Virus record (IMG/VR): IMGVR_UViG_3300025769_000367
Span: 1-35,868 of that record
DNA: 35,868 bases
Reading direction: 5' to 3' (one strand)
Source: a virus
Below are positions 17,231-17,740 of the stretch, piece after piece. Position 1 is the first letter of the stretch. Every line of letters begins with the position of its first letter. Below the pieces are notes generated by a model. The model did no database searches, was not told the DNA's origin, and saw nothing but the letters and a program-made list of their open reading frames with translations. The translations under genes were made by a program, and so were the position numbers.

Positions 17231-17259
17231 TTGACTATATAAGTTAATGGCACTATAAT
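17231..17259 (+). promoter_or_regulatory. Promoter TTGACT-N17-TATAAT for the riboswitch operon
   Basis: TTGACT at 17231-17236 and TATAAT at 17254-17259 are 17 bp apart. The expected start, about 17266, is one base before the aptamer begins. Confidence 0.85.
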
Positions 17260-17266
17260 GTGCTTA

Positions 17267-17365
17267 CGTTCAACCAGGAAACTGGTCGCAAGTAGGACGG
17301 CGGAACGGATCGTTCATTCGCTATTCGCAAATAGCGAACGCAAACCGCCCGAAGGAACGGGTTTT
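17267..17365 (+). promoter_or_regulatory. Glutamine riboswitch-like leader (glnA / Downstream-peptide class)
   Basis: The order of elements matches the glutamine aptamer: CGTTCA (17267-17272), hairpin P2 ACCAG-GAAA-CTGGT (17273-17286), the conserved joining strand GCAAGTAGG (17288-17296; consensus GGAAGUAGG), P3 GGCGG (17299-17303) / CCGCC (17345-17349), then CGAAGGAACG (17350-17359). Here GAACG closes P1 with CGTTC. P3 carries an extra perfect hairpin TTCGCTATT-CGCA-AATAGCGAA (17317-17338). An alternative hairpin CCCG (17348-17351) / CGGG (17358-17361) followed by TTTT would break P1 and P3. The next gene is a 44-codon ORF, as is typical of Downstream-peptide RNAs. Confidence 0.85.
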
Positions 17366-17394
17366 AATTAACTCATTTCTTTGGAGGCAATCTC

Positions 17395-17529
17395 ATGGCT
17401 AAAGTCGTATATCGTGGTGCCGCTTATGACACCAATGACCGTCTGAATAAGATGGTTTGCACAAAAGAAACCTTTGTAGAAACTTACAGAGGTGTGAAGC
17501 ATACCGAAACCAAAGAGGTATGCAAATGA
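17395..17529 (+). CDS. Riboswitch-controlled small protein, 44 aa, DUF4278-like
   Basis: MAKVVYRGAAYDTNDRLNKM ... ETYRGVKHTETK contains two YRG motifs, as in the small cyanobacterial DUF4278 family, whose function is not known. It follows GGAGG at a normal distance and is the first gene after the glutamine aptamer. Overlaps the next ORF by ATGA. The DUF4278 assignment is by eye and moderate. Confidence 0.7.
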   Translation: MAKVVYRGAAYDTNDRLNKMVCTKETFVETYRGVKHTETKEVCK

Positions 17530-17627
17530 AACTGAATGTCCTGCAGCTTGTAAAAGAGCAAAAACAAAAACAGAATAGACTACATAAAGCACAAATTGCA
17601 CAACTTGTTGGAGCAAAGAAATGCTAG
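17526..17627 (+). CDS. Tiny basic helical protein, 33 aa
   Basis: MKLNVLQLVKEQKQKQNRLH continues to a Cys terminus. It is amphipathic and rich in Lys and Gln, and is coupled by ATGA to the riboswitch-controlled gene. Function unknown. Confidence 0.55.
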   Translation: MKLNVLQLVKEQKQKQNRLHKAQIAQLVGAKKC

Positions 17628-17701
17628 CCGTAGTAGAAATAACTTTGGCATCAATGGCATTTATGCTATTGATAGTTGCTGAAGTTCACTTACTTAAATG
17701 A
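17621..17701 (+). CDS. Tiny membrane peptide, 26 aa
   Basis: MLAVVEITLASMAFMLLIVA forms one hydrophobic helix with a short polar end. It overlaps the previous ORF by 7 bp and ends just before the terminator at 17704. Likely the third member of the riboswitch operon. Confidence 0.5.
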   Translation: MLAVVEITLASMAFMLLIVAEVHLLK

Positions 17702-17703
17702 CT

Positions 17704-17740
17704 AGAGAGGGTTGACACCCTCTCTTTTTTTATGTAAAAT
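17704..17740 (+). promoter_or_regulatory. Terminator hairpin with consensus -35 across its loop
   Basis: The perfect 9-bp stem AGAGAGGGT / ACCCTCTCT (17704-17712 and 17717-17725) is followed by a T run. TTGACA (17712-17717) spans the loop and is exactly 17 bp before TAAAAT (17735-17740). It ends the riboswitch operon and likely starts the thyX transcript at 17762. Confidence 0.8.

Follow-up and report, generated by a model that had tools for sequence, protein, structure and literature searches.

Two glutamine-type three-way junctions on one shared P3 helix in the leader of a small T4-like cyanophage operon

The closest described relatives of the RNA analyzed here are the glutamine-I (glnA motif, RF01739) and glutamine-II (Downstream-peptide, RF01704) riboswitches. 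Tandem glnA riboswitches have two glutamine cores per leader, independent of one another, with P1 and P3 local to each core. The glutamine-II RNA has been solved: G41, which directly follows GGAACG, is the pairing partner of C19 in CGCA, and C1, G18, C39 and G40 hold glutamine, which is stacked between C19 and G18 (PMC6698751). Cyanobacterial glutamine riboswitches located upstream of DUF4278 genes have been shown to be ON switches, among them the gifB riboswitch of Synechocystis, a single aptamer in front of a host gene for the DUF4278 protein IF17 (PMC6316151). The host DUF4278 domain is the N-terminal part of this glutamine synthetase inactivating factor and is reported to be dispensable for inhibition (PMC6316151). 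For phages, glutamine riboswitches are on record from cyanophages (PMC9964418, PMC9602691) and from other marine viruses of bacteria (PMC9004378). That of cyanophage S-CREM1 (OP535465) was annotated by Rfam search as one glnA riboswitch, in a section that describes no second junction (PMC9964418).

The window, i.e. the whole 35,868-nucleotide stretch that was analyzed (IMG/VR record IMGVR_UViG_3300025769_000367), is a 35.9-kb viral contig of a T4-like cyanophage. It carries a psbA-type reaction-centre gene, gp32, baseplate wedge gp53, ThyX and PhoH, and its closest matches are Synechococcus T4-like phages, in agreement with the cyanophage origin proposed from the letters alone. The psbA-type gene, which begins at 681, is interrupted by a group I intron at 1430-1664 (RF00028, 85.7 bits).

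All features of the riboswitch and its operon are on the plus strand. Rfam cmscan matched positions 17265-17363 to RF01739 with 40.5 bits (E = 1.4e-5; gathering cut-off 35), so that the homology claimed in an earlier sequence-only reading, a glutamine-riboswitch-like RNA, was borne out by the glnA model. The Downstream-peptide model, which that reading had also proposed as a check, gave only 20.1 bits against a cut-off of 33, with the second half of the element alone matched (17308-17362); a glutamine-II identity was rejected. The motifs follow one another in the order the reading had given: CGTTC, P2, the strand CGCAAGTAGG (17287-17296), P3, the strand CGAAGGAACG (17350-17359) and a closing P1. 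The outer junction has all the sequence and structure elements of glutamine-I, i.e. the three-way P1/P2/P3 arrangement, CGUUCA, CG[G/C]AAGUA, GAAGGAACG and loop E, and it lies in a 5' leader with a DUF4278-like ORF (ORF1) 36 bases downstream. By these tests, the phage RNA is a true relative of the cyanobacterial glutamine-sensing switches.

The element at 17267-17360 is a pseudo-dyad in which a shared P3 connects, end to end, two glutamine three-way junctions, of which the inner is circularly permuted. Its letters are CGTTC-A-P2-CGCA-AGTA-[GGACGG]-C-GGAACG-GAT-CGTTC-A-P2'-CGCA-AA-[CCGCCC]-GAA-GGAACG. The bracketed strands (17295-17300 and 17345-17350) pair with one A.C mismatch, and the two junctions thus sit at opposite ends of one P3. 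Each junction has P1 strands CGUUC/GAACG, a P2 arm, and a CG[C/G]A strand; the third base of this strand is paired with the one that follows GAACG. In the outer junction, the P1 5' strand CGTTC (17267-17271) pairs with GAACG (17355-17359), the P2 hairpin spans 17273-17286, and CGCA followed by the loop-E half AGTA (17287-17294) contributes x1 = C17289, the partner of y2 = G17360; the Rfam alignment places the other loop-E half GAA, J3/1 and the P1 3' strand GAACG at 17351-17359. The second half of the element is the glutamine core again with GAACG placed before CGTTC, P1' being closed by a three-base loop (GAACG-GAT-CGTTC, 17303-17315, with y1 = G17308). Then follow the P2' hairpin (17317-17338) and the junction strand CGCAAA (17339-17344), in which x2 = C17341 is the partner of y1. 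The perfect hairpin at 17317-17338 had been noticed before and taken as an extension of P3 not needed for the core; the hairpin is there, but it is P2' of the second junction. Both junctions have the bases corresponding to the four glutamine contacts of the solved glutamine-II structure (C1, G18, C39, G40). When the full leader was folded by energy alone, the aptamer was not returned, a failure common for ligand-dependent junctions.

The composite thus resembles each described system in part. With glutamine-I it shares the P1, P2, loop E, P3 and conserved letters of the outer junction and the site before a DUF4278-type gene, but its P3 leads into a second, permuted junction instead of a loop, and its core pair is mostly C-G, whereas that of glutamine-I is G-C (CGGA...GGAACGC). 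With glutamine-II it shares the CGCA...GGAACGG core letters, the C-G long-range pair and a small downstream ORF; it differs in being built of three-way junctions with no H-type pseudoknot layout. Like the tandem glnA riboswitches it has two cores per leader, but here P3 is common to both, and the inner core is permuted. The S-CREM1 RNA is the same composite (L238), with an outer G-C and an inner C-G core pair where the window has C-G in both. A glutamine riboswitch in a cyanophage is already known, and the twin-junction build appears to be new: no description of the twin junction or of the embedded ORFs discussed below was found in the literature searched, with the reservation that one may exist outside it. 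A two-site riboswitch made of two aptamer cores on one shared helix would be a novel construction.

The pairing register can be read from the core pairs, since the pair is C-G in some RNAs and G-C in others, so that each CGTTC half can be assigned to its GAACG. The composite set comprises at least 225 distinct copies, nearly all on viral contigs. In the nested register, the outer pair x1-y2 is C-G in 189 and G-C in 36 of 225, with no mismatch, and the inner pair x2-y1, counted by parser because long loops make the alignment unreliable at y1, is C-G in 199 and G-C in 25, with one exception. Some scan patterns had partly fixed the inner letters and so shaped the inner-pair counts; mismatch-combination scans were run as a control for this reason. 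The G.G mismatch pattern returned 68 stretches, of which the 21 composite-like ones were all normal C-G elements whose downstream tail had been matched; the C.C pattern returned 12 stretches and no composites, and the matched G-C pattern 90 stretches with 71 composites.

In the 100-sequence model alignment, 98.8% of cells are paired and double-sided changes occur at 17 of 29 pairs, counts that are inflated by the relatedness of the sequences. All 4 modelled pairs of the outer P2 and 7 of the 8 of P2' show double changes, and the shared P3 covaries across composites. None of 500 shuffles reached the observed score on any of five measures, and the paired fraction fell to 31-53% in slid registers. 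The letters of P1 and P1' are invariant and P2' is free to vary. Such constancy is expected if the letters themselves, not pairing alone, matter, although for P1' it was partly imposed by the scans. An unselected set was obtained with glutamine-I core patterns that left the insert unconstrained: inserts of at least 32 bases numbered 58 (37 distinct, the set being redundant), 6 of them true tandem aptamers, and GAACG...CGTTC was found in 50 of the 52 others. A single ordinary aptamer with a spare hairpin on P3, as the sequence-only reading had it, is ruled out by the inner covariation; the insert repeats the glutamine core with its parts permuted.

A covariance model built on compact composites (R1) scored the window at 89.3 bits and 100 composites at 70-104 bits, compared with 21-37 bits for ordinary single or tandem glutamine aptamers. 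The RF01739 cut-off of 35 bits was reached by the window, yet by only 3 of the 15 composite-bearing loci tested; the Rfam model misses most copies of the twin-junction variant at its own cut-off. With the compact, 80-nt element of phage Bellamy plus the start of its downstream gene region as a DNA query, 424 phage records were matched, a count of matches to the query and not of composites. The twin-junction design recurs in hundreds of viral sequences, and the scattered annotations of a glnA RNA in cyanophages come together as one defined, widespread viral riboswitch architecture. A scan of a genome collection gave 46 matches, of which L472, L479 and L507 were verified as composites by the covariance model; it found none in the five further loci to which it was applied, and the parser found none in the rest. 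A host origin of the composite was considered and rejected: L507 equals a viral contig of IMG/VR in length, L479 has a ThyX-like motif, and L472 is a short MAG contig assumed to be viral. Other viral contigs (L007, L012, L047, L062, L078) have true tandem canonical glutamine aptamers ahead of small ORFs.

The leader is preceded by a sigma-70-type promoter, TTGACT-17-TATAAT (17231-17259), with 11 of 12 consensus letters. The distance from the -10 box to P1 is 7 bases, the spacing most often seen in relatives as well (63 of 103). The strong promoter of the sequence-only reading is borne out, and the start claimed one base upstream of the aptamer, at ~17266, is plausible from this spacing. The tiny operon postulated downstream is also there. 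ORF1 (17395-17529, 44 aa) has a Shine-Dalgarno sequence GGAGG (17383-17387) 7 bases before its ATG. It scores 22.9 bits (E = 1e-4) with DUF4278 (PF14105), just under the cut-off of 25.3, hence "DUF4278-like", and matches phrog_5049 with E 4e-11; one of three homologues scanned against PF14105 passes, with 31.4 bits. ORF2 (17526-17627, 33 aa) overlaps ORF1 and matches the N-terminal half of phrog_545. The other half of this family is a DUF4278-like part, the two being fused in some phages and split into two overlapping ORFs in the window. ORF3 (17621-17701) encodes a 26 aa hydrophobic peptide, 60% identical to a P-HM1 counterpart directly downstream of the DUF4278-like gene, and an intrinsic terminator with a 9-pair stem plus a T run (17704-17733) closes the operon. 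Across relatives, a YRG-type/DUF4278-like ORF follows the composite leader in 252 of 310 cases by a strict test and in nearly all others by eye. In the window as in S-SM2, the arrangement is glutaredoxin - riboswitch - small ORFs - ThyX - PhoH. In S-PM2, Bellamy and P-SSM2 the riboswitch lies a few small genes upstream of the thymidylate synthase gene, which in S-PM2 and Bellamy is followed downstream by PhoH. The setting recalls that of gifB, but the phage DUF4278-like protein is only about 44 aa. As the DUF4278 part of IF17 is reported to be dispensable for inhibition, it should not be taken for granted that the phage protein inhibits glutamine synthetase directly.

A switching helix is predicted for the ligand-free leader. 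In the leader folded alone, CCGAAGGAA (17349-17357: the P3 end, J3/1 and part of P1) pairs with TTTCTTTGG (17376-17384) with pair probabilities of 0.85-0.98, enclosing a predicted inner hairpin (17359-17363/17370-17374). The predicted helix covers the start of the Shine-Dalgarno and is incompatible with the outer junction. Among relatives whose leader is of this type, the last P3 base and its switching-helix partner are T-A in 60, C-G in 27, T.G in 24 and other in 5, a covariation with Fisher p = 2e-8 if kinship is ignored. In the proposed mechanism, the 3' part of the aptamer, CCGAAGGAA, would pair in the absence of glutamine with UUUCUUUGG over the Shine-Dalgarno, keeping ORF1 off. With glutamine, both junctions would fold, the switching helix would be lost and the ribosome-binding site would become free, so that ORF1 and the coupled small ORFs would be translated in the bound state. 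On this folding model an ON switch is likely; the freeing of the ribosome site by glutamine itself we infer by analogy. Leaders with y2 = C have a different platform, and the switching helix is unsupported there (mean z about 0). In such leaders, e.g. S-CREM1, the aptamer is directly followed by CTCTTTAA, which pairs with TTAAGGAG across the Shine-Dalgarno, and base y2 is shared between the aptamer and this pairing. Transcription attenuation through GCCCG-AAGGAA-CGGGT-TTT (17347-17362) is possible in the window, but it is not favoured because the hairpin is absent in relatives such as S-PM2 (ACTGAAGGAACGGG).

From the retained contact letters we infer that both junctions bind L-glutamine, and it is with fair confidence that the whole is read as a composite of two glutamine-binding junctions acting as an ON switch for ORF1 and its coupled small ORFs. 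Two ligand sites could steepen the response. The phage RNA probably lets the virus read the nitrogen state of its host, and control by glutamine in the phage is plausible; the composite gives a direct handle on whether Synechococcus and Prochlorococcus viruses read host nitrogen status.

The alternative that survives best, though rather unlikely, is that the outer junction alone senses glutamine and that the inner one props up P3 as a structural or "ghost" copy. Ghost aptamers are known to support glycine riboswitch singlets. The outer junction alone keeps the glutamine-I loop-E motif (AGTA/GAA), absent from the inner one, and the Rfam match rests on outer elements. Against such a role, the inner junction retains all the glutamine-contacting letters, its P1' letters are invariant where P2' varies freely, and its core pair flips independently of the outer pair, without mismatch. 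A quite improbable reading is that the fold is as described but serves another ligand, or is the relic leader of a captured gene, with no glutamine sensing in the phage. It draws on the fact that glutamine binding by the phage RNA is a prediction and that the phage copies adjoin DUF4278-like genes of unassigned function, not glnA; it must contend with the retention of every known glutamine-contacting base in both junctions, with a gene partner (DUF4278) like that of host glutamine riboswitches (PMC6316151), and with the covariation of a plausible switching helix. An ordinary tandem, in which the two aptamers would each form P1 and P3 locally, can hardly be entertained and is refuted by the core-pair register: the motif order CGTTC..GAACG..CGTTC..GAACG would fit it and true tandems do occur in other viral contigs (L007, L012), but read in the tandem register both units are mismatched at the core pair in 31 of 186 parsed elements, there is no local P3 in the window, and true tandems stay within the low composite-model scores given above.

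The twin-junction aptamer of many relatives carries genes in its arms. The inner P2' is at least 60 bases long in 86 distinct relatives, 81 of which have an ORF embedded in it. The ATG lies 9-11 bases after the start of CGTTCA, and the stop ends exactly two bases into J3/1, so that the last codons (..DAND*, ..DAKAD*) are the CGCAAA and P3 strand of the aptamer itself; in 76 of the 86 the P2' stem extends into the ATG. The ORFs are complete, about 49-75 codons long, with a hydrophobic start and paired cysteines, and several belong to PHROG families 504, 13397 and 6471 (function unassigned). In the largest length class, substitutions number 1977 at codon position 3, 1316 at position 1 and 558 at position 2, a third-position excess like that of real genes. 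In other relatives the outer P2 is the arm with an ORF, which in some of them closes with ..GRK*, its stop codon being the TAA of AAGTAAG. The cultured phage P-HM1 (GU071101 157041-157450; L678) has ORFs in both arms, annotated PHM1_179 and PHM1_180 and followed by the DUF4278-like PHM1_181. S-SM2 (L677), also cultured, has the inner one (SSM2_270); further examples are cultured P-SSM2 (L245), S-SZBM1 (L244) and many viral contigs. A tentative extension, conceivable but doubtful, is that cyanophages have evolved a fused pseudo-dyad sensor with two ligand sites in which, since both the start and the end of the embedded ORF lie in aptamer helices, glutamine-bound folding would shut that ORF and open the downstream DUF4278 gene, and translation of the embedded ORF would in turn melt the sensor; if true, one RNA would have two opposite outputs. 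Coding sequence threaded through riboswitch arms and ending on aptamer bases would be an unusual overlap of gene and sensor.

The window aptamer is of the compact form, with no embedded ORF. Its P2' hairpin, TTCGCTATT..AATAGCGAA (17317-17338), recurs near-unchanged as P2 or P2' in many composites and is more conserved than other P2 arms; 95 of its 96 occurrences in the fetched loci adjoin CGTTCA.
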